From positions 1 through 53,554 of the forward strand of contig JAQCGX010000023.1 of NCBI GenBank assembly GCA_027619975.1: a stretch of DNA of 53,554 nucleotides, read 5' to 3'. The notes beneath the pieces are model-generated. The model saw only the letters and a list, made by a program, of their open reading frames with translations, made no database searches and was not told where the DNA came from. The DNA is from Nitrospinota bacterium (lineage in GTDB: Bacteria > Nitrospinota > Nitrospinia > Nitrospinales > VA-1). The translations under genes were made by a program, and so were the position numbers. Below, in pieces: positions 174-29,797 of the stretch (positions within the stretch are counted from its first letter, which is position 1; every line of letters begins with the position of its first letter).

Positions 174-1697
174 TTAAAACGGAATGGAATCTATTGCCAG
201 TTGCATCAGTGCGGAGGGGAAAATTCCGAAAAACAGAATGGCCGCAGTGCTCACCATCACGAGAGCGCCCATCCCCTTGTTGATGGTGAAGGGGACTTCC
301 TCGTCTTCTTCGTGAAAATACATCATCACGATCACGCGCAGATAGAAATACACTGAGATCACGCTGGCGATGACTGCCAGGATCGTTATCAGGGTGTATC
401 CGGATTTGATCGCGGCGATAAAAACGTAGAACTTACCGAAAAATCCAGCAGTTGGGGGGAAACCCGCCAGGGAAACCATGAACAGGCTCATCGCCGCCGC
501 CAGCAGAGGACTGCGCTTGGCCAGACCTTTAAAGCGGTGAATCGAGTTGCCTTCCTGCCCTTCGCCTTCCATGATGAACACGACTGCAAAAGCGCCGATA
601 TTCATGAACAGATAGATGGCCAGATAAAAAATGATGCTGGCCATGCCCTGCTCACTGTTGGCCACGATGCCGATCATGAGATACCCGGCATGCGCGACGC
701 CGGAATAAGCCAGCATGCGTTTGACGTTGTTCTGAAAGATAGCGGCGATATTGCCGACCAGCATGGTCAGCACGGATGCGCCGAACAGGAATGGCATCCA
801 GACTTCCTCCAATTGCGGCAGGGCGATATAAAAAATCCGGGCGATGAGGGCCATAGCCGCCGCTTTAGTGGCAACAGACATGAATCCGGTGATGGGAGTC
901 GGGGCGCCCTGGTAAACGTCCGGTGTCCACGAATGGAAAGGCACCAGCGACACCTTGAATGCCAGCCCGCAAAACATCAGCGCCATGCCGATATAAACCA
1001 GCAAATTGGAACTGTAAGGGTTTTCCTTGATCAATTGTCCGATCAGCCGAATCTCTGTGGTTCCCGTTCCCGCGTACATCAAGGCCATGCCGTACACGAG
1101 GATGGCAGATGCGAAGGCTCCGGTCAGCAGGTATTTGACCGCGGATTCCTGAGAAGACAGGGTTTCCCAGGAAAGCTCGAGTTTCGCCGAGGGCGTTTCC
1201 CGTCCGGTTCCATGTTTGGCCGAAAATCCACACAGGATATAAAGCGCTACGGAAAATATTTCCAGAGAAATAAATGCAGTGATCAGGTTTCCTGATTTTG
1301 CCAGAAACATCATTCCCATCACGGCGAATAGAATCAAAGAGAAATATTCAGCCTTATTTTCGTGATCGGGTTGCGGGTAGCGCACCGAGCCGAAAATGGC
1401 AAACAGGGACATTAGTAGAAAAATGATGTTGAACGTCTGGGAAAACCGGTCGTTCAGCAGGGCATGGCTGAACATTTCAGGGTCTTCGCCGCTGGAAGCC
1501 GTCGGCGCCAGCCCCCAAAGGTAAACGGAGAAAAACAGCGCGATCACCACTCCAGAGAGCGCGGTCTGTGAAAGATAAGGGTTTGAATTGAGATTTTTGT
1601 TGAGGCCCGCCATCAACACAAACAAAGCGGTGATCAGAACCGTCAGTTCCGGAGCCAGGGCGAACCAATTCATGTCTGAAAAATTAATGAGACTCAT
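174..1697 (-). CDS. nuoN: NADH-quinone oxidoreductase subunit N (complex I)
   Basis: Antiporter-like membrane subunit of proton-pumping NADH dehydrogenase. The 507-residue length and the regular run of hydrophobic helices (about 14) match NuoN. Family motifs are seen: the helix with FKVSLVPFHSWTPDVYQGAP (proton-channel lysine and the HSWTPD stretch), then the RMLAYSGVAHAGY segment, and a Pro/Gly-rich AGFPPTAGFFGKFY helix. ATG at 1697 is taken as start; a second in-frame ATG eight codons later (1673) is possible, and neither has a strong Shine-Dalgarno. The gene is not at the end of the nuo operon, where nuoN usually follows nuoM. It lies about 17 kb away on the opposite strand with its own upstream region, so its expression cannot be directly coupled to the operon. 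Identification is firm. Confidence 0.97.
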   Translation of the reverse strand: MSLINFSDMNWFALAPELTVLITALFVLMAGLNKNLNSNPYLSQTALSGVVIALFFSVYLWGLAPTASSGEDPEMFSHALLNDRFSQTFNIIFLLMSLFAIFGSVRYPQPDHENKAEYFSLILFAVMGMMFLAKSGNLITAFISLEIFSVALYILCGFSAKHGTGRETPSAKLELSWETLSSQESAVKYLLTGAFASAILVYGMALMYAGTGTTEIRLIGQLIKENPYSSNLLVYIGMALMFCGLAFKVSLVPFHSWTPDVYQGAPTPITGFMSVATKAAAMALIARIFYIALPQLEEVWMPFLFGASVLTMLVGNIAAIFQNNVKRMLAYSGVAHAGYLMIGIVANSEQGMASIIFYLAIYLFMNIGAFAVVFIMEGEGQEGNSIHRFKGLAKRSPLLAAAMSLFMVSLAGFPPTAGFFGKFYVFIAAIKSGYTLITILAVIASVISVYFYLRVIVMMYFHEEDEEVPFTINKGMGALVMVSTAAILFFGIFPSALMQLAIDSIPF

Positions 1698-1955: not shown

Positions 1956-4900
1956 ATGTTGCTTCTTAGATTAACTTTCCTATTACCGACCATCGCGTTG
2001 CCGATATTTTTTTTCGCAACAACCGCTCCTGTCTTTGGCGCTTCCCAATTTAACATTCCCGTCCAGGTCACGACACATCCGGGCGAGGATTTTGCTCCCA
2101 CCCTGTCGGCGGACGGCAGGCGAATGATATTTGTTTCCAACCGTTCCGGAAATCTCGACTTGTGGTTGAAGCATCGAGGTCCTGGGGTACAGCCCCTGGA
2201 TGAGCAGTTGACGTATCACAGCGCTGAAGACAATTCTCCAAAATTGAGCCTCAGCGGCAAGCGGTTGGCATTTGTTTCCCATCGGTCCGACCCCAAGGGA
2301 GATATTTATCTCCTGGACCTGGAAAAGGGGAAACCGGAAGCGACCCGGTTGACGCTGGCGGACTTGCCAGAAGAAGACCCGGAATGGTCGCCTGATGAAA
2401 AATTCCTTTATTTCACATCGACCCAGCCCGAATCCAGGGAGCGCGGAATCTTCAAGATCGAGCTGAAAACGAAATCGAAATCTCTGGTGATCGAAAACGC
2501 AGTGAACCCCGCGATTTCTTTCGATGGGAGCTACCTGGCCTTTGTTTCCAGTGATGGAACCCGTGATCTGTGGGTACAGGATCTAAAAACCGGAGCTCGT
2601 GTGCAGATGACTTCCGGTTCTGCCATCGAAGTCACTCCCTCCTGGTCAAAAAATGGAAACCACATCTATTTCACCCGCTATCAGGAAGATACTAATTTTG
2701 ACGGCGAATTGACGATCGACGACAACCCCAGCATCTGGAAGGTCGAATGGGTTGCCGGAAAGCCGGGAAAATTGCGTCAGCTCACAGACAGCCGGTCTTA
2801 CGATTTATTTCCAGCAAGCAGCGTTGCCGGGAAGTTGATCTTTACCTCCAACCAGCAAAACAGTATCGATATATGGGAAATCCCCGCGGAAGGATTGTTG
2901 CCCACAGCTTCCGGTTACGGCAATTCTCTTCAGGTTGTGGATGACCTGTGCTCTGGGCCGGAGGGATACTCCTATCTCTGCCTGGCAGGTTATACCAATC
3001 TTATTTATGAGTTTGATGACGAAGAAAGCCTCGCCCGCACCCGTTACCGCCTGGCATTGGGATTCAAAAAAAGGGGGCATCTGGACACCGCCCACCGCAT
3101 GTTTGAAGAGATCATCAAAAAGCATCCCGATGAAAAAGAATATCGAGGACTGGCGGAGATCGACCTTTTATTGCTGAAGATGAACCGTTCGCGTGATGAA
3201 GGCCAGACTGTTTATAGGGAAAATGTCAATGTCGGGTTGGGGTTTCTGGAGAAAATCGCCCACCGTTATCCCGATTCGACGGCTGTCGGGGCGCGTGCGT
3301 TTTTCGAAACGGGAAACCTTCATTTCCAGTTGGACCATCAGAGCCGGGCTTTGGAGTTTTACAAAAAGGTCATCAATCAATATCCAGGCCAGCGGTATCT
3401 TTCTGCCGGAGCGGCGTTTTCCCAGAATAAAATCTATTCCCTGGTGGGAGATCAGGACCGTCTGGTGCAGACCTACGTGCAAGTGGTGCAGGATTATGAT
3501 GATGTGGATTTCTGGACCGATAAGGCAATCGATGAAATTTTAAAAATCTACGAAAAACAGCCCACCCTGGAAAAGAAAGTTTCCAGTCTGCAAGCCCTCA
3601 CCAGCAAATATAAAGACCTTCCTCGTTTGGCCGGCGCCATTCAGAACCGGATTGGGGAACTTTTTTATAAAGCCAATGAAAACCTGTTGGCCAAGGAAGC
3701 CTACAAAAAAACCATCGACCAGTTTGCTCAAGCGAATTCTCAGGTGTTCAATGCCAGGGTAGCGTTGGCAAACATTTATTCTGAAGAGGAAAATTTTGAC
3801 AAAAGTCTGACGCTCTATGATGAAATTTCCGCCAGTTCCGATTTGCTTGAGGACCACCGGCAAAAAGCAAAGGCGGGATGGATTCGCAAAATGGTGGAAA
3901 AGGGAACTTGGGAATTGCGAGTTGGGGAGGTCAAGCTGGCCTTGAAAACCTTCCTCAAGCTGATTGATTTCAGCCCCGACTCCGTGGAAGCCCATAGAGG
4001 GTATCTTCAGGCGGCTGCGGCATTGAAAAAAATTGATCCTGCGATCCGGTTTTATAAGGACCGGTTGAAGAGTCGCAAAGATTCCGCGGTGGATCATTAT
4101 GCTCTGGGGTTGGCCTACACCTACCTTTCTCTGACGGATCTTGCGCAAGCGGAAAAGTCAGTCTCCCAGGCGCTGGCGATTGATTCCCAGCAGGTGTTCT
4201 TTCACCAAACCCTGGGCTGGATTTATGAACAAAAAGAGCGCCTGGCTAAAGGGGAAGATTATCTAGAGCGGGCGGTGTCCGAATACCAGATGGCCCTGGC
4301 CTTGAACGATGAAACCGTCGATCCCGATAACGAAGCTGACTTGGCTTTGAACCTTGGCAATGGGCACTTTCTGTTGAGCAACCATTTTTCCGCCTACCAT
4401 TATTACAACAAAAGAAAATCGAGCGGCGTTAAATTTTTTAATTCCGAGCGTGAAAGCATTTTTCATCAGAGATTCGGTGAGAGCGCTTTCAAATCGGGAT
4501 TCCATGACGAATCCCTGGTGCAATATAAAGAAGCCCTTAAGATCGTTTCTGAAACAAATGATCTGAACCGAATGGCGGAGCTCAACGACCGGATCGCTCT
4601 GGTCTATCAGGACAAGGGAGATCATGCCAAGGCGGTGGAATATTTCTCCAAAACTCTGAAGCTCAATCAGCAGGCGGGCAACCAGGTGTCGCTTTCCCGC
4701 TCTCTCCGGAACATCGCCAATAATATCTTCATGCTCAATCAGGAGAAGGCCAAACCGGATACTCAATCCATGAGCCAGGCGCTCAACGATTATTTTCAGG
4801 CTATTGAAAGCCTCGAAAAGTACGGGGTGGTACAACGCGCGAAAAAAAAAGAGAAAGACGGGCTGATCAACCTGAAGGTTGAAACCGGCGTGGGCGAGGA

Positions 4901-7900
4901 CGTTTCAGGGGCGGCCACCGGGTTTGATCTGGTGGGCGAACAAAAACTTATTTTTCATTACATAGGTAAGATCTACAGCGATTTTAAGGAGTATGGGAAG
5001 GCGATCGAATATTTTAAAAAGAAACTGGCCTTGATCCCTGCGGACCTGGATGTTGAGAAAAATATCCCCATTAGTTTAGAAAAAGCCCTGCTGCAAAACC
5101 AGATCGGAAACTTTCTTTTTCACGAGGGCCAGTATGATGCCAGTCTCGATTATTTCAGGCAGTCCTATCAACTCAGCCGAAAATTGAACAATAAGTACGG
5201 GATAGCTGTCAACGCCGCGAATATCGGTCGAGTGGTTTTTACCAAGTGTCAGTATCAACCGTTAGCGCCTCTGAAAAAGGAAATCGAAGCCGTTATTAAG
5301 CTCCTGGAAGAATCATCCAAAGAGATAGGGCCGATGGAAACGTTTTCCAGTCCGGAATATATCCTGCTCGCCAGGAATTATCTGGGAATATTTAACCATT
5401 ACCTGGGGTTTTATTTCCCGACGAGAACTGAGGACGAAAAAGCCCCGAACCCATCACTGAAATCGTTGAAGGCGCTTGTCGCGGCTTCGACATTGGGATT
5501 ACGGCAGGACTACGATTATATAAAGCGATCCCGGAGTCATTTTGAAGAAGGGATTGCCCTGCTTTCTAAGAGTAAAAAATCGTTTCCCGAACTGGAAACC
5601 GTCCTCCAGCAAAACCTGGCGTTAACGGTTGGCCTGGTGGGAAAAGAGAAAGACACAGAGAAAAAGGAACCCGAAAAAGTTCAACCGCCTCATCTTAGGT
5701 GGCAATACAAATATATCGAGTCTTTGGTTGCGGAGCCTTCCCAGCGTCTGCCTGTTCTTTTGGAAGCGGAGCGGCTTTTAGCGGCGCTTCCCTACGGCGT
5801 TGTGTCCAGGGATTTTTCTACCCTGGCGATGGTGGAAGATCTGTATCTCGCGCTCACCCGATTATTGTACGACGAGGAAAAATTTTCCGAGGCGTTGGTT
5901 TTTTCAGAAAAGGGACGCCAGCAGTTGTTGGTGGCCCTCCGACCTGGGCTGGATCTGATCGACGAAGACCGGCGCAATTATTACGATGAACTCAGCGGCT
6001 ATGCAAGCCGATACCTGGCGTCGGCCTCCCTTGAAATGGAGGGCAAGGGAGATGAGGCGAAGCAGGGAACCGAAGAAATTGTGGAAGAATACCGGGAAGT
6101 TCTGGGCGCTTTGCAGGAAGAAAATCCTGCTTTTGGCGCATTGTTTTCCCCGTACGTTCCTTCGCTTGAAGAAACTCAGGGTCAGCTTCGTGCCGGAGAG
6201 ACTCTGTTAATATATCAGAGGGTTTTTGACCGCCTGCTGATTTGGGAAATGGATTCGGAATCTGTTCAGGTTCGCCAAATTGCCATAAATGCAGAACTGT
6301 CCGAGCGCATCATGCGTCTGGGAAGAGAAGGCGCTGAGCCGACAGCCTCTGATCTGAAGTTGATTGCCAAGCACCTGATAGTCCCTGTTCAGGACTCTAT
6401 CCAAAAGAGCCAGTCATTGACACTCCTCGCCGATGGCGCATTGGAGTTTCTTCCCTGGGCGGCCCTGCCTGCGGGCGGGAAGACTTTGATCGAAACGCTT
6501 CCGGTGACGTTTATTTCTTCCTTAGCGCAACACCATTTTTCCGAATCGCAAAAAAATCTTTACAATTCACGCATTCTTGGTGTGGACGCTTCCGGGTTCG
6601 ATAAGGTGGCCGCCGGTTTCGCTTCTGCCGTCAACCTCACAGGAGACCAAACCGATCTTGATCACTTTCGCAGTGTGTGGCCGCATTATGGCGTGGTGAA
6701 TATCGACAGCCGAACCCACCTGGGCCGGCTTGATCCCTCGGACTCGTTTATTAGCATCGGTGGACGGCAAAATCAGTTTCAGCGAGTCCAGCTTCGCGAC
6801 CTTTTCATGCAACCTTCGGAAGCAAACCTGATCGCCTTGAATAATGTCGAACCGGAGTTTCATCCAGAGCTGCGATTGTCCCCCACCGCACCTCTGATTC
6901 AAGCCCTGACGAGCAAGGGGTATCCAGGGATTCTTTTGCGCAGTGGGGCGTTTGATCCCGCCATTCACGCGGAAATGATGGGAGCTTTTTATAAAACTTT
7001 TCGTCAGGAAAAACCGGCCGAGTCGTTACGGCAGGCGCAAATGGAAATAAGCAAGCGTCACCCGGAGTCCTTGGCATGGGCGGGCTATCGGTTTTACGGA
7101 TTTGCAGGGATGGAGGACGCGGAGAAACAGGAGTTCGCCCAGACTCATTTTATGGCCAACGCCAAAGACGGCGCCCAGGCGTTTACGGATAAGAATTGGC
7201 TGGGAACCATCGATCATTTGGAAAAGGCTCTCGCCCTGGTGGATTTTCTGCCGGACAAGAGTCTGGTTGAAAGAATCATCAAAACCCTGGCTCAGGCCGC
7301 TTATAACCTGGAAGATTACCCGAAGGCCATCGGCTACCAGGAAGACCTGGTGGCACGCGCCCGCAAAAAAGAAGATCCTGAAGAACGGGCGGAGGCGCTT
7401 TATTTTCTCGGAATTTTATATTCCCGAGCGGAAAACTATCCCGTAGCTGTTGGCCATTTGCGTGAGGCGCTGGCCATTTATGAGAAAAACGAAATTCTGG
7501 ACCGTCTGGCTGAGAATTACAGCACGCTTGGAATCGTTGAAGAAAATGCCCTCGATTTCGACAAAGCGCTGGAAGCATTTACTTCTTCCCTGAAACTGAA
7601 CGAAGAAATTGGCGAAGACCTGAACCGCGGGCGGGAACTCAGGCGTATCGGCAGAATTTATTATCTGCGGCTGAACCAATACGCGCAGGCAAAAAAATAC
7701 TTTCAGCAGGCTTATCAGCTTTTCGAGGAATTGGGACATAACGAGCAGAAGGTGGAAACTCTGCTGGAGTTGGGATTGGTCTCTGAAAAACAGGGGGACT
7801 TCACCCCGGCCCTGGATTTTTATCAACAGGCCCAGTCTCTGGCCGCCGCCGAAGATCTGCAAGCGGGGCTTTCCAAGGCCCTGCTGTATCAGGCGAATTC

Positions 7901-9986
7901 TCACTGGTTCCAGGGAAATTATCAGAAAGCCTTTCGTTTCCAGAAAGAATCACTGGAGACTGCCGAAGCAATTGCGGACAAACGCCAGCAGACTTTTATC
8001 TACAACACTCTCGGCTTGATCTACTGGACCTTGAACGATTCTGAACGCGCTTTGGAAAATCTGAATCACAGTCTGGAACTGGCTGAGGCAATTCAGTCCC
8101 CTCTGGATGTCGCTTCCGCCAACAACAACATCGGTCTGGTTTACCGCAAAGACAAAAAATACGAAAAGTCTATCGAGTTTTTCAACAAGGCTCTGGCAAA
8201 AGACATCCAGCTTAAATCCAAATGGGGACAGGGGTACACCCACCGCAACCTGGGAATGAGTTTTATGCGCATGAAACAATTGGATGTGGCGGAAACTCAT
8301 ATTGCCAAAGCGATGGAGCTGAGCCGCGAGATCGGCAACCAGATCAACCTGGTGAAATCCATGCTCGAGTCCGGTCATCTGGCATTGGAAAAAAATGAAT
8401 GTGAAAAGGCCATTCCGGTTTTTCAGGAGACCGGCCAGCTTGCGGCGAAATTGAATATCCCCGAAGTGCACTGGCGGGCCTTGAGAGGGCAGGGAGCCTG
8501 CCTGGCAAAAGCCGGAAAACTGGCGGAAGCCGTGGACCCCTATAAACAGGCGGTGGCGGTAGTCGATAGCATGCGCGCCGCGATCAAGGTCGAAGAATTT
8601 CAAAACGGTTTTCTGACCGATAAACAGGATGTTTACAAAGAATTGATTCTCGTCCTGCTGGATCTGGGACAAGTGGAGGAATCCTTTAACTACGCCGAGC
8701 GGGCTAAATCCAGAAGTTTTATCGACCTCTTGGGCAATCAGAGAATCAGTCTGAAAAACGATGTCAGCCAGAAACTATACGATCAATTGACCGATCAAAA
8801 ACAAAAGATCCGTTCCATTGAAGACGCGCTTGGCGTTGCCCGGTCGGGGCCGGATGAAGGAGTCATCAAGGAGATTGCGGCGAATCTGGTGAAAGCTCGC
8901 AGTCGTTATCAGGATCTGTTGATTCAGGCCAAAGAAGAAAGCCCTGAAATTTCCAATTTCGTCACTGTGGAGGCCATCACTCTCAAGGAACTGGAGAAAC
9001 TGCTGGAACCGCAGGTAGCCCTTGTCGAATACCTGGTGACTGAAAACGAGCTGGTCGCCTGGGTCATCCGCCAGAGTGGGATTGAGGTGGTGCGCACTCC
9101 CGTGAAAGAGGCGGACCTGGGAGCGCTGATTGCGGATTACCGCAAACGCATGCAACAGTTAGCGCCTTTGGATGACCAGACCGCGCAACTTTATAACTGG
9201 TTGATCCGGCCCATTGACCCCTTGATTGCCGAAAAACGGGTATTAGGCATCATTCCTCACAGTCATCTGCATTACATTTCCTTTTCTTCTTTAAGGGATG
9301 GGGAAAGTTATTTGATGGAAAAACATCCCCTGTTTTTCTCACCCAGCGCCTCGGTACTTCAATACACCTTTAACAGGAAAATCGCCAAGGGGCGATCGGT
9401 GAAAGTCCTTGCTCTGGGGAATCCCGATTTAGGTGACCTCAATTACGACCTGCCTCTGGCAGAGATGGAAGCCAACGCCATCAAATGGGATTTCCCTGAG
9501 ATAGATGTTCTGACACGAGAAAAAGCTACCGAAAGCTGGCTCAACGAACACATCGGGGATTATCAGATCATTCATATCGCTTCCCACGGCGAGTTCGACC
9601 CGATCAACCCTCTGTTTTCATCGCTGAAGTTGACCAAGGACACGGCGGCGGATGGAAACTTTGAGGTCAATGAGGTGTTTTCCCTCAATATCAAAGCGGA
9701 TATCGTCACCCTGAGCGCTTGCCAGACGGGGTTGGGCCAGATCACCGGCGGAGATGAACTGGTGGGTCTGAACCGGGCATTTATCTATGCCGGAACGCAC
9801 TCCATTTTGTCGTCGTTGTGGCGGGTCAGCGATATTTCAACCGCGATTCTCATCAAACATTTTTACCGCAACTATGCACAGGAAACGAAAGCGGAAAGTC
9901 TACGTAAAGCCCAGCTCCTGGTGAAGCGGCTGTATCCGCATCCTTCTTATTGGGCGGGTTTCAATTTGACCGGGGATTACCGTTAG
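1956..9986 (+). CDS. giant secreted TolB-propeller/TPR protein with two CHAT domains
   Basis: Predicted 2676 residues from ATG 1956, chosen because it opens a clean Sec signal peptide (MLLLRLTFLL... ending VFGA-SQF, no lipobox) and follows AGGGA. Domains in order: signal peptide 1-24; TolB/PD40-like beta-propeller, about 30-320, with repeated SxDGxxxxFVSxRSGxxDLW units; a long TPR array, about 340-1330; a CHAT-like domain, about 1410-1720; a second TPR array, about 1730-2310; a canonical CHAT domain, about 2380-2676. The last carries the caspase-like dyad His2544 (HIASHGEF) and Cys2589 (LSACQTG). In the first CHAT-like domain the matching positions are His1588 and Val1631, so the cysteine is missing. 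CHAT proteins are caspase-HetF-type proteases, usually regulated by their TPRs. Substrate and partners are unknown. Export of such a protein to the periplasm or cell surface is inferred from the signal peptide. Confidence 0.9.
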   Translation: MLLLRLTFLLPTIALPIFFFATTAPVFGASQFNIPVQVTTHPGEDFAPTLSADGRRMIFVSNRSGNLDLWLKHRGPGVQPLDEQLTYHSAEDNSPKLSLSGKRLAFVSHRSDPKGDIYLLDLEKGKPEATRLTLADLPEEDPEWSPDEKFLYFTSTQPESRERGIFKIELKTKSKSLVIENAVNPAISFDGSYLAFVSSDGTRDLWVQDLKTGARVQMTSGSAIEVTPSWSKNGNHIYFTRYQEDTNFDGELTIDDNPSIWKVEWVAGKPGKLRQLTDSRSYDLFPASSVAGKLIFTSNQQNSIDIWEIPAEGLLPTASGYGNSLQVVDDLCSGPEGYSYLCLAGYTNLIYEFDDEESLARTRYRLALGFKKRGHLDTAHRMFEEIIKKHPDEKEYRGLAEIDLLLLKMNRSRDEGQTVYRENVNVGLGFLEKIAHRYPDSTAVGARAFFETGNLHFQLDHQSRALEFYKKVINQYPGQRYLSAGAAFSQNKIYSLVGDQDRLVQTYVQVVQDYDDVDFWTDKAIDEILKIYEKQPTLEKKVSSLQALTSKYKDLPRLAGAIQNRIGELFYKANENLLAKEAYKKTIDQFAQANSQVFNARVALANIYSEEENFDKSLTLYDEISASSDLLEDHRQKAKAGWIRKMVEKGTWELRVGEVKLALKTFLKLIDFSPDSVEAHRGYLQAAAALKKIDPAIRFYKDRLKSRKDSAVDHYALGLAYTYLSLTDLAQAEKSVSQALAIDSQQVFFHQTLGWIYEQKERLAKGEDYLERAVSEYQMALALNDETVDPDNEADLALNLGNGHFLLSNHFSAYHYYNKRKSSGVKFFNSERESIFHQRFGESAFKSGFHDESLVQYKEALKIVSETNDLNRMAELNDRIALVYQDKGDHAKAVEYFSKTLKLNQQAGNQVSLSRSLRNIANNIFMLNQEKAKPDTQSMSQALNDYFQAIESLEKYGVVQRAKKKEKDGLINLKVETGVGEDVSGAATGFDLVGEQKLIFHYIGKIYSDFKEYGKAIEYFKKKLALIPADLDVEKNIPISLEKALLQNQIGNFLFHEGQYDASLDYFRQSYQLSRKLNNKYGIAVNAANIGRVVFTKCQYQPLAPLKKEIEAVIKLLEESSKEIGPMETFSSPEYILLARNYLGIFNHYLGFYFPTRTEDEKAPNPSLKSLKALVAASTLGLRQDYDYIKRSRSHFEEGIALLSKSKKSFPELETVLQQNLALTVGLVGKEKDTEKKEPEKVQPPHLRWQYKYIESLVAEPSQRLPVLLEAERLLAALPYGVVSRDFSTLAMVEDLYLALTRLLYDEEKFSEALVFSEKGRQQLLVALRPGLDLIDEDRRNYYDELSGYASRYLASASLEMEGKGDEAKQGTEEIVEEYREVLGALQEENPAFGALFSPYVPSLEETQGQLRAGETLLIYQRVFDRLLIWEMDSESVQVRQIAINAELSERIMRLGREGAEPTASDLKLIAKHLIVPVQDSIQKSQSLTLLADGALEFLPWAALPAGGKTLIETLPVTFISSLAQHHFSESQKNLYNSRILGVDASGFDKVAAGFASAVNLTGDQTDLDHFRSVWPHYGVVNIDSRTHLGRLDPSDSFISIGGRQNQFQRVQLRDLFMQPSEANLIALNNVEPEFHPELRLSPTAPLIQALTSKGYPGILLRSGAFDPAIHAEMMGAFYKTFRQEKPAESLRQAQMEISKRHPESLAWAGYRFYGFAGMEDAEKQEFAQTHFMANAKDGAQAFTDKNWLGTIDHLEKALALVDFLPDKSLVERIIKTLAQAAYNLEDYPKAIGYQEDLVARARKKEDPEERAEALYFLGILYSRAENYPVAVGHLREALAIYEKNEILDRLAENYSTLGIVEENALDFDKALEAFTSSLKLNEEIGEDLNRGRELRRIGRIYYLRLNQYAQAKKYFQQAYQLFEELGHNEQKVETLLELGLVSEKQGDFTPALDFYQQAQSLAAAEDLQAGLSKALLYQANSHWFQGNYQKAFRFQKESLETAEAIADKRQQTFIYNTLGLIYWTLNDSERALENLNHSLELAEAIQSPLDVASANNNIGLVYRKDKKYEKSIEFFNKALAKDIQLKSKWGQGYTHRNLGMSFMRMKQLDVAETHIAKAMELSREIGNQINLVKSMLESGHLALEKNECEKAIPVFQETGQLAAKLNIPEVHWRALRGQGACLAKAGKLAEAVDPYKQAVAVVDSMRAAIKVEEFQNGFLTDKQDVYKELILVLLDLGQVEESFNYAERAKSRSFIDLLGNQRISLKNDVSQKLYDQLTDQKQKIRSIEDALGVARSGPDEGVIKEIAANLVKARSRYQDLLIQAKEESPEISNFVTVEAITLKELEKLLEPQVALVEYLVTENELVAWVIRQSGIEVVRTPVKEADLGALIADYRKRMQQLAPLDDQTAQLYNWLIRPIDPLIAEKRVLGIIPHSHLHYISFSSLRDGESYLMEKHPLFFSPSASVLQYTFNRKIAKGRSVKVLALGNPDLGDLNYDLPLAEMEANAIKWDFPEIDVLTREKATESWLNEHIGDYQIIHIASHGEFDPINPLFSSLKLTKDTAADGNFEVNEVFSLNIKADIVTLSACQTGLGQITGGDELVGLNRAFIYAGTHSILSSLWRVSDISTAILIKHFYRNYAQETKAESLRKAQLLVKRLYPHPSYWAGFNLTGDYR

Positions 9987-10273: not shown

Positions 10274-11194
10274 TTATCGTTTCGCGGGGGTGAATCGATG
10301 CACAATCAGCCAGTAGGCCAGCGCCAGACAGAGCACCAACACTCCATACAGCAAGACATCCATCGTTTTTGTAGTAGAAAGTGAGAAAATGAGAATTTTG
10401 CGGATGAGAGCCGCGATAGCGAGGACGATGAAGGCCTCCAGAGCAAATTTGCCGCCACGCAGGTGATTCATCTCTTCATGGATCAACTCGATGGCCGCCC
10501 ACAGGATCAAGAGACTGCCGAGAACGGTTAAAATTCCTGTTTCTATAGCCGACTTTCCGGAAAACAGCAGATAGACATCGTATCCGAACAAGCCGATGGC
10601 AAAAAATGCCACCATCACCAACGCGACTGCCAGCAGATAATTAAAATAGGAACTGGTTTTTTTCAGGAATCCCAATAACGTCTTTTCAATGCTGGAGAGG
10701 GATAAATAGCGGCTCATCTCCTCCTCTCGATAAGAACTGGTCAGCACATCCAGATTGATATCGAGAATCCTCTCAATGGCCTTGAATCTGTCGGTTAAAT
10801 CCGCCTCATTACTAAATTGTTGGTTGACGCGACCCAGGGTAAAAACCCGAACGTAATTGAACGCCGCATTGACATAATGGGTGGGAAGACCGAGTTTGAC
10901 ATGGATTTCTCCTATTTTATAAAGCTTCAGGAAATAGGAGATGCCATAAGCGCCGCCGAAAAGATCCAGATACCATTGGCGGATTTTACTGCGGTGCCGG
11001 GTGAGAACCGCTTCATCTTTTAAAAAATCCGCTGTTTTTCCAAAACTCCAGACAAATTCGTAAAACCCTTCCAGGAATTCATCGGCGGATGATTCCAGTT
11101 GCGGTTTCATTTGCAACAGCAAAGCTTCATCCTCTTTGGTGAAACGATAGTTGGCTTTTATAGCGGGAAAATCTTTTTGAAATCCGGTGTCCAT
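10274..11194 (-). CDS. protoglobin sensor fused to a PsiE membrane domain
   Basis: Predicted 306 residues. Residues about 8-160 look like a protoglobin/globin-coupled-sensor domain: a DEFLEGFYEFVWSF helix and the motif KIGEIHVKLGLPTHYV, where His98 would be the proximal haem ligand. Residues about 170-300 hold four hydrophobic segments with the PsiE-like stretch AAIELIHEEMNHLRGGKF and LAIAALIRKILIF; PsiE is a phosphate-starvation-inducible inner-membrane protein of unknown biochemistry. The arrangement suggests a haem-based gas or redox sensor in the cytoplasm attached to a membrane effector, in contrast to the more usual globin-cyclase or globin-chemoreceptor fusions. The gene is last of three co-directional genes. 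The domain calls are by motif; the function is inference. Confidence 0.82.
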   Translation of the reverse strand: MDTGFQKDFPAIKANYRFTKEDEALLLQMKPQLESSADEFLEGFYEFVWSFGKTADFLKDEAVLTRHRSKIRQWYLDLFGGAYGISYFLKLYKIGEIHVKLGLPTHYVNAAFNYVRVFTLGRVNQQFSNEADLTDRFKAIERILDINLDVLTSSYREEEMSRYLSLSSIEKTLLGFLKKTSSYFNYLLAVALVMVAFFAIGLFGYDVYLLFSGKSAIETGILTVLGSLLILWAAIELIHEEMNHLRGGKFALEAFIVLAIAALIRKILIFSLSTTKTMDVLLYGVLVLCLALAYWLIVHRFTPAKR

Positions 11195-11255: not shown

Positions 11256-11918
11256 TTACGTGGGAAATGCCGGGAAGACCTGTCCCGCTTCCAGAAGCAC
11301 CCAGCTCTCTGAGGTGTCTCCCAGGACCAGCTCCAGAGAGTCGTCCAGTTTTATCATGGGAAGAATATCCGCAGGCAACCGCAAATGGATTGTTTCGTTT
11401 TCCTTACGGCCTTTAAGAGTGACCATTTGGTTTTCGATATGAATTACTGAAAAAATATCGTTGATCGTCTTAACAATCGCTGGATGGTTTTCCAGGGTGC
11501 GTCCGGATTCGTGGTCGAGAAGGTGACTGAGTTGCAGGCATCGCTCCTGCATGGAACACAAATCCTTGATCAATGCCATGAGGTTGAACTTGGAGAAGCC
11601 GTGCTCAATGCCACTTTTATCCATCCATCTGAAAAAGGAGTACACATCAAATAGAATGGTGTTTATTTCGTCATTTTCAGAGACGGAACTGAAAGGCAGA
11701 AATGCCACGACAAAATAACTGAGATGAGAACCGTCCAGATCCGTCGGAGGAGCGGTCACCCAGGGCTTGTCATCTGAGTCCTCATGAGATAACCCCGCCT
11801 CTAAAAGCCCGGTGTGAAATAACGAGAGACTGTATCCCAACTCCGGCGTCAGCATCGTAGGGTCTTGTCTTACTCTGGTTTCAATTGCATATTCCCGCAT
11901 CAACTCATAAATTCCCAT
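11256..11918 (-). CDS. hypothetical protein, 220 residues
   Basis: Not recognised. The product is soluble, acidic and free of signal peptide or membrane spans. The middle (about 105-150) is a probable helix with FSKFNLMALIKDLCSMQERCLQLSHLLDH, and the C-terminus (about 160-218) looks beta-rich, with alternating hydrophobic residues (VTLKGRKENETIHLRLPADILP) that might form a small barrel. The start at 11918 is backed by AGGA five bases upstream. It begins 13 bases after the aminotransferase stop and ends 61 bases before the globin-PsiE start, so all three probably share a transcript. Confidence 0.75.
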   Translation of the reverse strand: MGIYELMREYAIETRVRQDPTMLTPELGYSLSLFHTGLLEAGLSHEDSDDKPWVTAPPTDLDGSHLSYFVVAFLPFSSVSENDEINTILFDVYSFFRWMDKSGIEHGFSKFNLMALIKDLCSMQERCLQLSHLLDHESGRTLENHPAIVKTINDIFSVIHIENQMVTLKGRKENETIHLRLPADILPMIKLDDSLELVLGDTSESWVLLEAGQVFPAFPT

Positions 11919-18508: not shown

Positions 18509-18862
18509 ATGACGGAATATTTTTTCATTTCTGTATTTGCGGTCGTCGCTCTGGTTGTGGTCGGAGCCCTTTTGGCGCTTTCCACTATTCTCGGACCCAG
18601 GAACCCAACCCCCCAAAAATTAATTCCTTATGAGTGTGGTATCATCCCGCGCGAAGAAGCCAAGGGAAGATATCCTGTCCGTTTTGCAACCATAGCCATG
18701 CTCTTTATCATTTTTGATATCGAGGTGGTTTTTATGTATCCCTGGGCGGTGGCTCTCGATCAGCTCAAGCTGTTTGGACTGATCGAAATGGTCGTTTTTA
18801 TTACTATTTTTGGAGTGGCCTATGTCTATGTCTGGGGTCGAGGAGGTTTGGAATGGGATTGA
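18509..18862 (+). CDS. nuoA: NADH-quinone oxidoreductase subunit A
   Basis: Small complex I membrane subunit, 117 residues with three membrane helices. The conserved loop [19 protein letters not shown] (family form YECGxxP...R..vrFy) and the acidic helix [15 protein letters not shown] identify it. The start is preceded by AAGGA. First gene of the nuo operon. Its end overlaps nuoB by ten bases. Confidence 0.97.
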
Positions 18863-19437
18863 TTGACTCTGCGGTCGAAGCGTTTGAGACCGAAGTAAAC
18901 AATATAAAGTTGAATGTCAAAGAGGCGGTGGAATCGCTCAATCATGATTATGCGGGAGCGGTCTACGACAGTATTCTAACCACCAAGCTCGGCAAGGTGG
19001 TGGGTTGGGCTCAGAAAAATGCGCTCTGGCCTGCGACGTTTGGCCTCGCCTGTTGCGCCATTGAAATGATGGCCATGGCCAATTCCAGGTGGGATGCGGC
19101 CCGGTTTGGAGCGGAAGTGTTTCGCGCTTCTCCACGACAGGCGGATCTGATGATCGTCTCGGGGCGGGTTTCACAGAAAATGGCCCCGATACTCAAAACC
19201 ATTTACGATCAGATGCCGGAGCCCAAGTGGGTTATCTCCATGGGGGCGTGCGCTTCCTGTGGTGGTATCTTCAATAATTATTCCATTGTGCAGGGCGTCG
19301 ATCGCGTGGTTCCGGTAGATGTTTATGTTCCCGGTTGTCCCCCCGGTCCAGAAGCTCTTCTTTATGGCATCATCAAATTGCAGGAAAAAATAATGCAGGA
19401 AGCGGGTACGGGCAACGCGAAAAAGAGGGTGGCATGA
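18853..19437 (+). CDS. nuoB: NADH-quinone oxidoreductase subunit B
   Basis: Carries the terminal N2 iron-sulphur cluster that reduces quinone. Predicted 194 residues; the cluster ligands are visible as the tandem Cys pair in [20 protein letters not shown] and [11 protein letters not shown]. The start overlaps nuoA, with AGGAGG-like sequence inside the nuoA end. An N-terminal extension of roughly 30 residues precedes the core. Stop overlaps the nuoC start (ATGA). Confidence 0.98.
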
Positions 19438-19964
19438 CGTCCGAGGAGTTGATTGAGAAAATTCAATCGTCTTTGGGAGGCGATATTCAGAGCGCAGAAG
19501 TGCACCTCGGTGACGCTGTAATATTTGTGTCTCAGGAAAACCTGCATAAAGTAGCGCAAGCTCTGAAAGAAGATGTCGATCTGCGGATGGAGTATCTGTC
19601 CGATATTCGCGGCGTGGATTATCTCGATCAGGATCGTGAACCTCGATTTGAAGCTGTCTACGAATTGCACTCGTTTGCACATAATCACTCCGTTCGTATT
19701 CGTGTTGGCCTGGAGGAAGAAAACCCTTCGGTTCCGACGGTGTCGGACTTATGGAAAGGCGCTCTTTACCCGGAGCGCGAGCTTTTTGATATGTTGGGGT
19801 TCGATGTTCCCGGTCACCCTGATCTGAAGCGCCTCATTATGCCCGAAGAGTGGGAGGGGCATCCTTTAAGAAGGGATTATCCGCTGACGACGGAAGATGT
19901 GGCGTTTTCTCACAATCGTGATTATAAGAGTGAACTGGTAAAATCCAAACCCCCGACCCGGTAA
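19434..19964 (+). CDS. nuoC: NADH-quinone oxidoreductase subunit C
   Basis: 30-kDa subunit of the peripheral arm, 176 residues from the ATG that overlaps the nuoB stop; the reading frame is open further upstream, but that would lie wholly inside nuoB. Family signature [38 protein letters not shown] is present (positions about 122-160). Here nuoC and nuoD are separate genes, unlike the fused form of enterobacteria. Confidence 0.97.
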
Positions 19965-20025
19965 AATTTGCATGACCATCAGTGAACTAAGAATTTTTAA
20001 ACCTCTTGTCAGGTTCTATATATAA

Positions 20026-21225
20026 ATGAGCGTTACCGAACAAGGTCTGCTGGAGCGCGATAAGGATACGATGACCCTCAATATGGGGCCGTCGCATCCC
20101 AGTACGCATGGAGTGTTCCGGGTGATCATGGAAATGGATGGCGAAATCGTCGTTTCCGCCGAACCTGAAATCGGTTATCTCCATACCGGGATCGAAAAAA
20201 CTTCGGAGAACAAACGTTACGTCCACGTCATCCCCATGACTGACAGGCTCGACTACCTGAGCCCGCCGCAGAACAACCTTGCTTTTTGCCTGACGACCGA
20301 GAAACTTTTGCAATGTGAAATTCCGCCACGGGCGCAGTATTTGCGCGTCATCATGTGCGAGCTGGCCAGGATCGGCAGTCATCTGGTCTGGCTGGCCACG
20401 CATGCGCTCGATATCGGCGCGATGACTGTGTTTCTCTATTGCTGGCGGGAGCGGGAGATGATCCTTGATCTCAACGAGGAAATTTCCGGCGTACGTATGA
20501 TGACCAGTTACATCCGCATTGGCGGGGTGATGAAAGACGCCACTCCTGAATGGTTGGGCAAGGTACGCAAGTTCATCGATTACCTGCCCGCCAAGATAGA
20601 CGAATACGAACGACTGCTCACCCACAATCCTATCTGGCTGGATAGGACTCAAGGGGTAGGGGTGATGACACGGGAAGAAGCCATCAACTGGAGCTTGAGC
20701 GGCCCTGCGCTTCGCGCCTCGGGAGTGGATTTTGATTTCCGTAAAAAGCGGCCCTACGGTGGCTACGAAAATTTTGAGTTTGACATTCCCGTCGGCAAGA
20801 ATGGAGACGTGTACGACCGTTACCTGATGCGGGTGGAAGAGTTGCGGCAGAGCCGGCGCATCGTGGCGCAGGCGTTGAACAACCTGCCGGACGGTCCTTA
20901 TAAAGTGCAGGATAATAAAGTATCGCTTCCTGAAAGAGACACCCTGCACACCAGCATGGAATCCTTGATTCACCATTTCAAATTGGTGTCAGAAGGGGTC
21001 AGCGTTCCCAGAGGCGAGACGTATGTGCCAACGGAAGGTCCACGCGGCGAAGTGGGGTTTTATATTGTCAGCGATGGCAGTAATGTCCCGTACAGGGTGA
21101 AGCTCCGCGCTCCTTCGTTTATGGCGATTCCGGGAATGTGTCAAATGATGAGTGGTTCTTTTATTGCGGATGTGGTTGCGATCATTGGGAGCATTGATAT
21201 CGTGATGGGGGAGGTGGACCGCTGA
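20026..21225 (+). CDS. nuoD: NADH-quinone oxidoreductase subunit D
   Basis: 49-kDa subunit forming the quinone site with NuoB; 399 residues, usual length. Motifs: GPSHPSTHGVFR (quinone-site His), YLHTGIEKTSENK, and the C-terminal IGSIDIVMGEVDR ending. ATG 20026 directly follows an in-frame TAA. The ribosome-binding site is weak (AGG about 12 bases upstream), and a 17-codon open frame in the 61-base gap ends exactly at this TAA, so coupling from it is possible. The last base of the gene is the first base of nuoE. Confidence 0.98.
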   Translation: MSVTEQGLLERDKDTMTLNMGPSHPSTHGVFRVIMEMDGEIVVSAEPEIGYLHTGIEKTSENKRYVHVIPMTDRLDYLSPPQNNLAFCLTTEKLLQCEIPPRAQYLRVIMCELARIGSHLVWLATHALDIGAMTVFLYCWREREMILDLNEEISGVRMMTSYIRIGGVMKDATPEWLGKVRKFIDYLPAKIDEYERLLTHNPIWLDRTQGVGVMTREEAINWSLSGPALRASGVDFDFRKKRPYGGYENFEFDIPVGKNGDVYDRYLMRVEELRQSRRIVAQALNNLPDGPYKVQDNKVSLPERDTLHTSMESLIHHFKLVSEGVSVPRGETYVPTEGPRGEVGFYIVSDGSNVPYRVKLRAPSFMAIPGMCQMMSGSFIADVVAIIGSIDIVMGEVDR

Positions 21226-21701
21226 TGTTCGCGTTTACAAAAGAGGATGAAAAAAAAATCGAAGCGATACTCAAGAAGTATCCGCCGGAGCACAAACGCT
21301 CTGCATTGTTGCCGCTGTTGACGCTTGTGCAAAGGCAGGAAAGATATGTCAGCCCGGATGCGATGCGGGAAATTGGACGGCGGCTGGATCTTTCTCCGGC
21401 GTATGTGCAATCGGTCAGTTCCTTTTATACGATGTATTCCACCGAGCGGGTGGGCAGATATATGATTTTGTTTTGCATCAATATCAGTTGCCAGTTGAAT
21501 GGGTGCGATGCTCTTTTGGAACACACTGCGAATAAACTGAACATCAAAGTGGGAGAGACCACGACGGATGAAAAGTTCACCCTGCACCGGGAGGAATGCC
21601 TCGCGGCCTGTTCAGGGGCGCCGATGATGCGAATCAACGATACGTTTTATGAAAACCTGACCACCCAAAAAATCGATCAGATCCTGGATTCCCTGGACTA
21701 G
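21225..21701 (+). CDS. nuoE: NADH-quinone oxidoreductase subunit E
   Basis: Thioredoxin-fold [2Fe-2S] subunit of the NADH-oxidising module, 158 residues. Cluster ligands are seen as CINISC (Cx4C) and ECLAACSGAP (Cx3C). The start overlaps the nuoD stop (TGATG). An N-terminal helix bundle with LPLLTLVQRQERYVS, typical of the family, precedes the cluster domain. Confidence 0.97.
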   Translation: MFAFTKEDEKKIEAILKKYPPEHKRSALLPLLTLVQRQERYVSPDAMREIGRRLDLSPAYVQSVSSFYTMYSTERVGRYMILFCINISCQLNGCDALLEHTANKLNIKVGETTTDEKFTLHREECLAACSGAPMMRINDTFYENLTTQKIDQILDSLD

Positions 21702-21708
21702 AAATTTC

Positions 21709-22968
21709 ATGACACAGATTCTATTTAAAAATATAAATAAAAAGAACCTGCACACGCTTGCGGTTTATGAAAAAGAAGGCGGCTACAAAAGCCTGAAAAA
21801 AGCTTTTGCCAAGGAGCCGGAGGAAATCATAGAAATGGTCAAAGCGTCCGGGCTTCGCGGTCGCGGCGGCGCCGGGTTTCCCACCGGGTTGAAATGGAGT
21901 TTCCTGGCCAAGGATGTATTTCCCCGTTACCTTTGTTGCAATGCCGACGAAAGTGAGCCCGGAACCTGCAAGGACCGTGAGCTGTTGCTCAAGAATCCGC
22001 ATCTTCTCATCGAGGGGATGATTCTCTGCTCCTATGCGTGCAGGATCGAAACCGGCTATATTTATATGCGCGGCGAGTTTTACGATCTGTGCGAGATTAT
22101 GGATAAAGCTCTGCAAGAAGCCCACGCCAAAGGCTATCTCGGTAAAAATATATTAGGTTCAGGTTTTAATCTGGACATTCACACCCATCTTGGGGCCGGG
22201 GCTTATATTTGCGGGGAAGAATCGGCGTTGCTCAACTCGCTTGAGGGCGGGCGCGGCGAACCGCGAATGAAACCGCCATTTCCAGCCGTTCAGGGGCTGT
22301 ATGCCAAACCCACGATCATCAATAACGTTGAGACGCTTTGTGTTGTTCCAAACATTGTGAACGAGGGCCCGGAGCAGTACGCGGCCCTGGGCACGGAAAA
22401 AAGCAAGGGGACCAAACTGGTCAGCGTTTCGGGCCATGTTAAAAAGCCCGGCAATTATGAAATTGTCATGGGGACGACGGTCCGGGAAATTATTTATGAT
22501 ATCGCGGGAGGCATTCGCGACGACAATCGGTTGAAAGCCTTTATTCCCGGTGGTTCTTCGGTTCCGATGTTGCCTGCGGATCTGGTAGATACGCCCTATG
22601 ATTATGAGTCTTTGCAAGCGGCGGGGAGTATGTTGGGCTCCGGCGCGTTGATCGTGATGGATCACACCGTCAACGTGGTGGAGGCGACTTTGAGACTGGC
22701 CAGTTTTTACAAGCACGAATCGTGCGGAAAATGCACTCCCTGCCGGGAAGGCACCCGCTGGATGTGGCAGTTGTTGAACCAGATCCACATAGGACAGGGG
22801 CAGATGGCGCAGGTGGAAAAGCTGGTGGATATTTGCGACAACATGAGTTTTAAATGTTTTTGTCCGCTGGGAGATGCGGCGGTAGGGCCGGTGGCCAGCA
22901 GTATCAAGCATTTCCGCGCCGACTATGAAGAACTAATTGGACAAATGACGGCTGAGTCCGCCGTCTGA
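21709..22968 (+). CDS. nuoF: NADH-quinone oxidoreductase subunit F
   Basis: NADH- and FMN-binding subunit, 419 residues. Visible motifs: GLRGRGGAGFPTGLKW (FMN/NADH site), CNADESEPGTCKDR, GAYICGEESALLNSLEG, and the [4Fe-4S] N3 ligands SCGKCTPCREG with the later Cys in KCFCPLGD. Seven bases after nuoE. Length and order are standard. Confidence 0.98.
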   Translation: MTQILFKNINKKNLHTLAVYEKEGGYKSLKKAFAKEPEEIIEMVKASGLRGRGGAGFPTGLKWSFLAKDVFPRYLCCNADESEPGTCKDRELLLKNPHLLIEGMILCSYACRIETGYIYMRGEFYDLCEIMDKALQEAHAKGYLGKNILGSGFNLDIHTHLGAGAYICGEESALLNSLEGGRGEPRMKPPFPAVQGLYAKPTIINNVETLCVVPNIVNEGPEQYAALGTEKSKGTKLVSVSGHVKKPGNYEIVMGTTVREIIYDIAGGIRDDNRLKAFIPGGSSVPMLPADLVDTPYDYESLQAAGSMLGSGALIVMDHTVNVVEATLRLASFYKHESCGKCTPCREGTRWMWQLLNQIHIGQGQMAQVEKLVDICDNMSFKCFCPLGDAAVGPVASSIKHFRADYEELIGQMTAESAV

Positions 22969-22982
22969 GGATATAAATAATC

Positions 22983-25475
22983 ATGGCAGATGAGCAGATC
23001 ACATTAACCATAGACGGTCAATCGGTCACCGTTCCCAAAGGCACCAAGGTGGTGGATGCGGCCAGGACGGTTGGTATCGAGATTCCCGTTTTTTGCTACC
23101 ACGAAAAGCTGGGGCCACTGGGCTGTTGCCGCATGTGTCTGGTGGAAGTAGAAAAGATGCCCAAATTGATGACCGCCTGCACCATGGATGTGGGGCCGGA
23201 CATGGTCGTCAAAACCACCACGCCTAAAGTGGAAAAAGCGCAACAAGGGGTATTGGAATTCACCTTGCTGAACCATCCGCTCGATTGTCCCATCTGTGAC
23301 AAAGGCGGGGAATGTCCTCTGCAAAACAACACATTCAAGTACGGTCCCGGTGATACGCGGATGGAATTTAACCGCGCCCATAATGTGAAGGCCAATCCTT
23401 TAAGCCCAGTGATCACCCTGGATCGCGAGCGGTGCATCGCCTGCCAGCGCTGTACGCGCTACAGTGAAGTCATTGAGCAGGATAATACCTTGGTCATGAA
23501 CAACCGGGGGTTTAATAATGAAGTCGGAACCTTCAATAACGAGCCTTACGACACCCGCTTTTCTGGAAATGTGATTGACATCTGCCCGGTCGGCGCGCTG
23601 ACCAATACGCAGTTTCGATTCAAAGCCCGGACCTGGGACCTGACCAATTCCGATACTCTGTGTGCCCATTGTGGTTGTAACTGCAATATGACGATGGGAG
23701 TGCGCACAAATAAATTCATGCGAATGGAGTCTCGTCCCAACGACCTGGTGGACGATGGATGGATTTGCGACAAGGCCCGCTGGGGATATGATTTTCTCGA
23801 AGGCAAAAACCGGATTCAGGAAGTCCGCGGCGGCGTGGACCATGAAGGAGCGACCCTGACCGTATTGGATGGAGGCGTCAAGACGCCCTCTGTCAAAGAT
23901 GCCGTTGAACGAACTGCCAATGCAATCAAGAAAATTGTGGACGAACATGGGCCCCAAAGCGTTGGCTTCATAGGTTCGCCCTATGGGACCAATGAAGAGC
24001 TTTATCTATATCAAAAATTATTCCGCTTCGGGTTTGGTACCAATAACATCGACCACAAAGTTTATGCCGAGTCGCCAGGACTGCCCATTGACCATTATGA
24101 TTTCAGCGACATTGAGACCTCGAACCTGGTTTTGCTGATCGCCAGCGACCCAACGGAAGAACTGCCGATTCTTGATTTGCGAATCAAAAAAGTGGTGTCT
24201 CGACAAGGCGTGAAACTTGCGGTGCTGAATGATCAAAGCACCCTTATGGACAAATACGCGCATCTTTCTTTGCGATACAACATCGGCACAGACGCTCAGG
24301 TGTTCTCTGCATTGGCCGGGTGCCTTTCGGGAAAAGGGAGCGACGCCAAAGAAACCGGCATTGAAGCCGAGCAGATGAATGCCTTGGTCGAGATGTTGAA
24401 GTCGAATAAAAAGGTGACGGTGGTTTATAATCCCGCCGCATTGACTGGGCGATCAGTGGATGTCCTCAAACATCTGTTGTCTGAGATTCAAAAGATTCCT
24501 GATATTGAATGCGGGGCTATTCCCGCCGCACCTCATACCAATGCAGTGGGCGCTCTCGATATGGGAATTTTGCCGGATTATTATCCGGGCGGTGTGTCTC
24601 TTGCCGATAATGAGGCCATCAAACAGCAATGGGGTGACGAAGCTCCTTTGACTCCTGGATTGTCCGCGCTGGAAATGATTCATAAAGCGGCATCGGGAGA
24701 ATTGAAAGCGCTTCTTGTCTATCGCGCGAACCCGGTGGTCGATTTTCCCGGCGGCAAACAAGTGGAAGAGGCGCTCAAAAAAATCGATCTGCTGATCGTT
24801 CACGACATCTGTGAAACCGAAACCTCTAAACTGGCTCATATTGTATTGCCTTCCAATGGCCCTGGGTACGATGAGGGAACCACCACGAATATAGGTGGGC
24901 GCGTACAGTTTAGAAAAGGCGGGCTGAAAACAACACATCCTCCTGATTGGAAAATTATTTCCATGATGGCCAAAACTCTGGGGGATGAAAGCAATTACAT
25001 CACGTCCTTCAGCGTCACCGATGAGATTGCCAAAAAGGTTCGCGGATACAATGAAATCAGCAAAAAGTCTATTAAGAAAGAGGGGATGGCCCGGACTTCC
25101 GCCGAAAGCAGTAATGGCGCGTCCCCGGAAGCGGCAAAAGCACAGAGCCCGAAGGGCGATTCCCTTTTGAAACTGCGAATTGCAAATTATCTCTTTGCGC
25201 ATGACAAAATTCTGGATGCCTCATCCACTCTGGCGCATCAGTTCAAATCGTCGATCGTGCATCTGCATGAAGAAGACGCTAAAAAGCTGGGGTTGAAGGA
25301 TGACGATGATGTGATCGTGATTTCGGGGGATGCCAAAGTCGAGGCGCAGGTGGAAATTTCCAACCGCTGCAATCCCGGCGGTGTGGTGCTTCCCAGAGTT
25401 TCAGATGAACAGGATGTTTTAGGATTGGTAAATGGCGCGGATGCCGTCAGCTGGGTGGAAATCCGCAAGAATTGA
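22983..25475 (+). CDS. nuoG: NADH-quinone oxidoreductase subunit G
   Basis: Large iron-sulphur subunit, 830 residues. The N-terminal ferredoxin-like domain has CYHEKLGPLGCCRMC; the His-ligated N5 site is HPLDCPICDKGGEC; then CIACQRCTRYSE with CPVGAL; then a molybdopterin-oxidoreductase-type cluster motif CAHCGCNCN with a later WICDKARWGYDFL. The rest is a bisMGD-oxidoreductase-like fold without expected cofactor. A low-complexity Ser/Ala/Lys linker lies near residues 700-722 before the C-terminal barrel-like domain (about 725-830). Confidence 0.97.
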   Translation: MADEQITLTIDGQSVTVPKGTKVVDAARTVGIEIPVFCYHEKLGPLGCCRMCLVEVEKMPKLMTACTMDVGPDMVVKTTTPKVEKAQQGVLEFTLLNHPLDCPICDKGGECPLQNNTFKYGPGDTRMEFNRAHNVKANPLSPVITLDRERCIACQRCTRYSEVIEQDNTLVMNNRGFNNEVGTFNNEPYDTRFSGNVIDICPVGALTNTQFRFKARTWDLTNSDTLCAHCGCNCNMTMGVRTNKFMRMESRPNDLVDDGWICDKARWGYDFLEGKNRIQEVRGGVDHEGATLTVLDGGVKTPSVKDAVERTANAIKKIVDEHGPQSVGFIGSPYGTNEELYLYQKLFRFGFGTNNIDHKVYAESPGLPIDHYDFSDIETSNLVLLIASDPTEELPILDLRIKKVVSRQGVKLAVLNDQSTLMDKYAHLSLRYNIGTDAQVFSALAGCLSGKGSDAKETGIEAEQMNALVEMLKSNKKVTVVYNPAALTGRSVDVLKHLLSEIQKIPDIECGAIPAAPHTNAVGALDMGILPDYYPGGVSLADNEAIKQQWGDEAPLTPGLSALEMIHKAASGELKALLVYRANPVVDFPGGKQVEEALKKIDLLIVHDICETETSKLAHIVLPSNGPGYDEGTTTNIGGRVQFRKGGLKTTHPPDWKIISMMAKTLGDESNYITSFSVTDEIAKKVRGYNEISKKSIKKEGMARTSAESSNGASPEAAKAQSPKGDSLLKLRIANYLFAHDKILDASSTLAHQFKSSIVHLHEEDAKKLGLKDDDDVIVISGDAKVEAQVEISNRCNPGGVVLPRVSDEQDVLGLVNGADAVSWVEIRKN

Positions 25476-25517
25476 AGATAAGGGTTGTTAAGTGGGGTTG
25501 TTACATGGAGTCTTGTT

Positions 25518-26537: not shown

Positions 26538-26556
26538 TGACCCATCAAGGGACTTT

Positions 26557-27051: not shown

Positions 27052-27077
27052 GTTAGGAAAGTATTCAGGAGCGTTAC

Positions 27078-27614: not shown

Positions 27615-27616
27615 TT

Positions 27617-27916: not shown

Positions 27917-27921
27917 AACCA

Positions 27922-29790: not shown

Positions 29791-29797
29791 AGATAAA

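Follow-up and report, generated by a model that had tools for sequence, protein, structure and literature searches.

That a pseudo-protease can stand next to a protease is already known from separase and Csx29. Eukaryotic separase (C50) has helical repeats followed by a pseudo and an active protease domain. In Csx29, the TPR-CHAT protein of type III-E CRISPR (Craspase; PDB 8eex, 8eey, 7y8t), a single CHAT module is built from a pseudo-caspase half (CHAT1) and an active half (CHAT2), a layout that has been likened to separase (PMC10028731), and target RNA moves the last TPR, upon which the active site becomes ordered (PMC10028731; compare PMC9729208). HetF, from the cyanobacterial TPR-CHAT proteins, is described as a divisome component required for heterocyst formation (PMC8406250). 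A CHAT-like fold also occurs in DdvA (PDB 8rot), a transmembrane anti-sigma factor. Because a pseudo half next to an active half is ordinary within a Csx29 module, the unusual part of the protein described here is a second module that is complete and dead.

The gene lies in a window of 53,554 nucleotides (the whole stretch of DNA that was analysed) that is contig C23 of a 2.93 Mb Nitrospinota assembly; marine nitrite oxidisers are known from this phylum. Its reading frame, placed as in the first-pass annotation, is free of internal stops over its entire length, and an in-frame TTG lies at 1923, upstream of the start codon. Pfam agrees with the claimed combination of a TolB-like propeller, TPRs and two CHAT domains in one chain, finding propeller repeats of the PD40 type, numerous TPRs and two stretches of CHAT; against Pfam CHAT (PF12770) the whole protein scores 247.5 bits, where the curated cut-off is 24. 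In the genome-wide Pfam scan the inner CHAT covers 6357-6554 and 6630-7100, and the C-terminal CHAT 9183-9977. The layout is as follows.

1956..9986, plus strand: gene of the giant protein, 2,676 aa, ATG start; full-length orthologues exist
1956..2042, plus strand: signal-peptide-like N-terminus, aa 1-29, with a hydrophobic core in all orthologues that have a complete N-terminus
2046..2915, plus strand: TolB-like / PD40 beta-propeller, aa 31-320 (Pfam PD40 4.2e-34; TIGR02800 106 bits)
2949..2981, plus strand: invariant cysteine pair C332/C342, a candidate disulfide, C in every orthologue covering the positions
3003..5705, plus strand: TPR array 1, aa about 350-1250 (Pfam TPR families)
5823..6107, plus strand: helical linker leading from TPR into the inner CHAT module, aa 1290-1384 (hhalign of just the linkers, E 3.4e-6)
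6108..7160, plus strand: inner CHAT module, predicted to be catalytically dead, aa 1385-1735 (Pfam, hhalign, AF2, Foldseek)
6711..6713, plus strand: R1586, at the catalytic-His column of the profile alignment, never H in orthologues
6846..6848, plus strand: V1631, at the catalytic-Cys column of the profile alignment, never C in orthologues
7188..8525, plus strand: TPR array 2, aa about 1745-2190 (Pfam TPR_12 and others)
8943..9983, plus strand: C-terminal CHAT module with an intact His-Cys dyad, aa 2330-2676 (Pfam, AF2, Foldseek)
9585..9587, plus strand: predicted catalytic H2544, H in 30/30 orthologues
9720..9722, plus strand: predicted catalytic C2589, C in 30/30 orthologues

All of the motifs on which the first-pass annotation drew were recovered (HIASHGEF at 2540, LSACQTG at 2586, AESLRQAQ at 1688, AESLRKAQ at 2646, WAGY at 1708 and WAGF at 2666), and H2544, C2589, H1588 and V1631 are where it had placed them. 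Its reading of the inner active site holds for V1631, which does stand at the cysteine position, but not for His1588, which lies two residues off the catalytic-His column. In the profile alignment, R1586 is matched to H2544, T1587 to G2545, H1588 to E2546 and V1631 to C2589. With R1586 as the catalytic-His column, the distance from the His to the Cys column is 45 in both modules, and the proposed difference in spacing (43 vs 45) disappears. Nor can His1588 be taken as a retained catalytic histidine: it pairs with E2546, and only 7 of 30 orthologues have H there, the others having R/F/Y/N/Q/V.

Across the 30 orthologues the inner His column reads P in 16, R in 7, K in 5 and T and L in one each, but never H; the inner Cys column reads V in 24, I in 4 and L and A in one each, but never C. 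The corresponding C-terminal columns are H and C in all 30. P and L fill the inner His and Cys columns in the Planctomycetota homologue (L092) and in a homologue from family f5 of the class (L135), and no homologue keeps a cysteine at the inner catalytic column. Among single-module CHATs, His and Cys are kept in 14 of the 14 compared. The His-Cys dyad that characterises CHAT is therefore present in the C-terminal module and absent from the inner one. Since R1586 and V1631 occupy the two catalytic columns, both positions are lost and not the cysteine alone; judged from these alignments, the inner module is dead at both positions across the whole family examined, a pseudo-CHAT. The suggestion that one polypeptide combines a pseudo-protease with a protease is thus supported; neither of the two outcomes that the first-pass annotation had named as refuting it, an inner region with a different fold or a cysteine retained in homologues, was obtained.

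The inner module is a true CHAT domain, with a resemblance well above chance and a confidently predicted CHAT fold. Residues 1385-1735 alone match Pfam CHAT at E 1.1e-14 (55 bits) over nearly the whole profile, and 31 of the 32 family copies match it at E<=0.01. Profile-profile comparison (hhalign) aligns the inner and C-terminal modules end to end over 325 columns (E 3.8e-24, probability 99.6). An AlphaFold2 model built from 32 family sequences has a pLDDT of 92.1 and a pTM of 0.92, and its best Foldseek matches are Csx29/TPR-CHAT (E about 1e-12, TM about 0.66), followed by DdvA and separases. The inner region is accordingly predicted to fold as a CHAT/separase domain. The alignments to Csx29 and separase, a comparison made at the level of modules, cover the whole module. 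Pfam Peptidase_C50 matches one of the 32 inner copies (E 0.0077) and gives no match at E<=0.01 in the giant protein itself.

The C-terminal module is recognised by Pfam at aa 2410-2674 (genome match E 5.5e-60) and has the same Foldseek matches as the inner one: Csx29 at 4.1e-15, DdvA and separases. Its AF2 model is less confident (pLDDT 80, pTM 0.85), lowest at the active-site loops, which could perhaps be due to the very uniform alignment.

The similarity between the two halves of the protein extends beyond CHAT. The linker preceding the inner module matches the one preceding the C-terminal module (within aa 2190-2329; hhalign E 3.4e-6), and linker plus CHAT of the two copies align at E 1.5e-24. 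As the linker was duplicated as well, the duplicated unit is TPR-linker-CHAT, starting from at least aa 1293. A maximum-likelihood tree of 43 CHAT modules gathers the inner copies into a single group (100/100) and the C-terminal ones into a second (100/99), which indicates a single origin of the inner module. The nearest single-module kin of the C-terminal group are the TPR-CHATs L136-L138 of family f9 (95/93), of which L137 and L138 have a signal-peptide-like start and L136 is a fragment. The placement of the inner group relative to single-module CHATs is unsure because several branches are long, and the two modules of a chain need not be each other's nearest relatives. By the same sequence comparisons, both inner catalytic residues were lost before the sampled Nitrospinota lineages split.

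Near full-length orthologues with 49-82% identity are found in families f1-f4 of the order (60 relatives searched). Across the phylum, 41 of 77 genomes contain an inner-module match at E<=1e-5, which we read as 37 orthologues, one divergent f5 copy and three single-module CHATs; genus g14 lacks such a match in all eight of its genomes. Outside Nitrospinota, a conserved-peptide scan of 84,980 species genomes returned one Planctomycetota genome, the unclassified bacterium RI_26 and one Dependentiae record, a distribution that is a lower bound because the scan used two peptides. The Planctomycetota homologue is full length (33% identity). The Dependentiae record (L097) is a truncated copy that ends before the C-terminal catalytic part, and we left it out of the analysis. 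RI_26 (L098) was considered as a second deep lineage with a dead inner module and rejected: its C-terminal half belongs to the family, and its middle region gives no profile match. In RI_26 the giant gene (L098 2967-8863) follows genes for an M48 peptidase, a DUF748 protein (YdbH/AsmA-like) and a DUF1318 protein (YdbL-like), the last of which it overlaps, a context that raises a possible link to envelope lipid transport. DUF748 proteins of the window's genome are encoded on other contigs only.

The gene neighbourhood is shared order-wide, with nuoN divergent and upstream, and a conserved unknown gene, an aminotransferase, DUF4159 and GATase-like genes downstream. Inheritance therefore looks vertical, and this conservation speaks against a horizontal or defence-island origin, which we rejected; PADLOC reported a generic TPR model and a weak BovA match, and nothing else. 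We found no convincing partner among the giant gene's neighbours, which do not look like a functional operon. The conserved neighbour at 11256-11918 (minus strand; P0002, 220 aa) has no Pfam or NCBIfam match. At 10274-11194 (minus strand) a protoglobin domain is fused to a PsiE-like membrane domain, possibly making a membrane-anchored globin sensor; this gene is a neighbour of the giant one in just three close relatives, L064, L074 and L075. The giant gene also sits between the NuoN gene (174-1697, minus strand) and the other nuo subunits, which begin with nuoB about 17 kb away on the opposite strand (18853-31315, plus strand), and this split is conserved across the order. Two different genera carry very similar single-module TPR-CHATs (L041 and L042, in genomes G030 and G014, with several copies in G030), which suggests that CHAT genes of this type are mobile or recently shared, beside a giant gene that is vertically inherited.

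We propose that two TPR-linker-CHAT units behind a TolB-like propeller, in one exported chain, would form a gated CHAT cysteine protease of the separase/Csx29 type. The propeller and first TPR array would recognise a partner or ligand in the periplasm, the dead module would rigidly join the two TPR solenoids, with both a structural and a regulatory role, and the binding signal would pass through TPR array 2 to the C-terminal module, where H2544 and C2589 would be lined up and substrate cut. This logic follows Csx29, in which target RNA shifts the TPR part and orders the active-caspase half. We put the chances of such gating, from a propeller/TPR sensor to the protease by way of the dead module, at about even. 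The allosteric control that the first-pass annotation had suggested is plausible by analogy with Csx29 (PMC10028731). It is more speculative, and in our estimate rather doubtful, that a full second TPR-CHAT unit has become a pseudo-protease devoted to regulating the active unit of its own chain, turning a periplasmic signal sensed by the propeller into a proteolytic one, and that these proteins make up an undescribed exported CHAT class in nitrite-oxidising bacteria and at least one Planctomycetota bacterium.

The chief alternative to gating is passive scaffolding, in which the inner module was kept after tandem duplication of TPR-CHAT and joins the two TPR solenoids with no control of the protease. 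Some of the most highly conserved inner positions lie in the hydrophobic LEFLPWAA and some in the tail YRYYGFPGM that leads into TPR array 2, as would suit a structural joint. Axonemal central-pair entries are also among the Foldseek matches in searches with the inner and C-terminal modules, and we take the CHAT-like folds of these proteins to be non-catalytic. Scaffolding is a possibility we take seriously while thinking it less than probable; by itself it fails to explain why the whole module, with both halves, has persisted for so long.

A signal-peptide-like segment is present in the window protein and in every orthologue with a complete N-terminus, and none of these N-termini has a lipobox. 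Cleavage is likely near VFGA|S, a site judged by eye. Beyond this segment a simple hydropathy scan detected no membrane helix, and the only cysteines invariant across the family are C332, C342 and the catalytic C2589. We infer that the giant protein is exported, either periplasmic or secreted, with one disulfide, and the family-wide signal peptide and the restriction of invariant cysteines to this pair and the catalytic one lend support to the earlier suggestion of export. Location is read here from sequence alone, and DdvA is a case of a CHAT-like fold in a membrane-anchored regulator, so that the giant protein might instead be cytoplasmic or a membrane-anchored sensor, and the notion of a caspase outside the cytoplasm wrong. 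However, with a signal-peptide-like segment in every complete N-terminus, an invariant cysteine pair and no further membrane-helix-like stretch, we find this unlikely. Exported CHAT proteins as such are probably not new: in a Nitrospinota relative, a protein of 1,871 aa (L139) combines TPR and CHAT with filamentous-haemagglutinin-like repeats and a signal-peptide-like start.

Decoy control had been suggested as well, and nothing that we found speaks for a decoy. Because the caspase-like fold is retained, a cleft may remain in the inner module; emptied of its catalytic residues, it might bind a peptide and present it to, or withhold it from, the C-terminal active site. Yet the former active-site columns are variable (P/R/K/T/L at 1586; R/H/F/Y/N/Q/V at 1588), unlike a conserved peptide-binding cleft, and an exosite of this kind seems distinctly unlikely to us.

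The inner module does evolve faster than the C-terminal one, with a mean column identity of 51% vs 78%. Using Nei-Gojobori counting in seven close orthologue pairs, we obtained omega values of 0.07-0.20 for the inner module, 0.06-0.12 for the C-terminal module, 0.10-0.19 for the propeller and 0.11-0.16 for TPR array 1, which are rough because synonymous sites are near saturation in some pairs. The inner module is similar in omega to the propeller and TPR array 1, and its values reach roughly three times those of the C-terminal module. These values point to purifying selection on the inner module, which is therefore not decaying. The reading frame is intact in nearly all genomes with the giant gene. 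Single in-frame TAG stops break two orthologues, L025 and L026/L068 (G022, G045), and could be either sequencing errors or pseudogenes. That the inner module is a functionless relic of duplication, decaying by drift, fits its faster evolution but is hardly credible against these dN/dS values, the intact frames, the confident predicted fold and the invariant columns in 32 sequences.

Taken together, the first-pass observation is partly confirmed and its interpretation partly supported. In the open-access literature we found no paper combining a CHAT domain with TolB and TPR, nor the phrase 'two CHAT domains', and we have not found described a complete dead CHAT module between two TPR arrays, behind a propeller, in a chain predicted to be exported. 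If gating through the dead module is correct, pseudo-protease control, known inside separase and Csx29 modules, would extend to an entire duplicated module, here in a bacterial protein that is exported, and would have been kept for very long by a lineage of marine nitrite oxidisers. The family also offers a natural set of at least 30 orthologues, each pairing a dead module with a live one, in which to ask what a caspase-type fold does without its chemistry, and the live module with its dyad makes activity directly testable.

Compared with described systems, the propeller resembles TolB (TIGR02800, 106 bits) but falls below the TolB cut-off of 343 and, unlike TolB, precedes TPR and CHAT; the same genome encodes another propeller protein, 455 aa long (G000:C28), as a gene of its own. 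HetF and other cyanobacterial TPR-CHAT proteins share CHAT plus TPR with the giant protein, and to our knowledge have a single CHAT. DdvA is a structural match to both modules but is an anti-sigma factor with a single module, as far as the match shows, and we know of no propeller in it. Within Nitrospinota, L137 and L138 have a signal-peptide-like N-terminus, TPR and a C-terminal CHAT, like the giant protein, but one module and no propeller. Separase also matches both modules structurally; its two domains are adjacent halves of one unit, whereas the giant protein has a whole extra unit about 950 residues upstream. Csx29 is the best structural match to both modules and shares the order of TPR then CHAT and the His-Cys dyad. 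The NCBIfam Csx29 model (NF041237) gives 46.9 bits for the whole protein and 52.8 bits for the C-terminal module, below its cut-off of 300, and among the window proteins scanned, a subset of the window's ORFs, none is Cas-like. Unlike the giant protein, Csx29 has one CHAT module and is described with a CRISPR effector; neither a propeller, a signal peptide nor a second dead module has been described for it.
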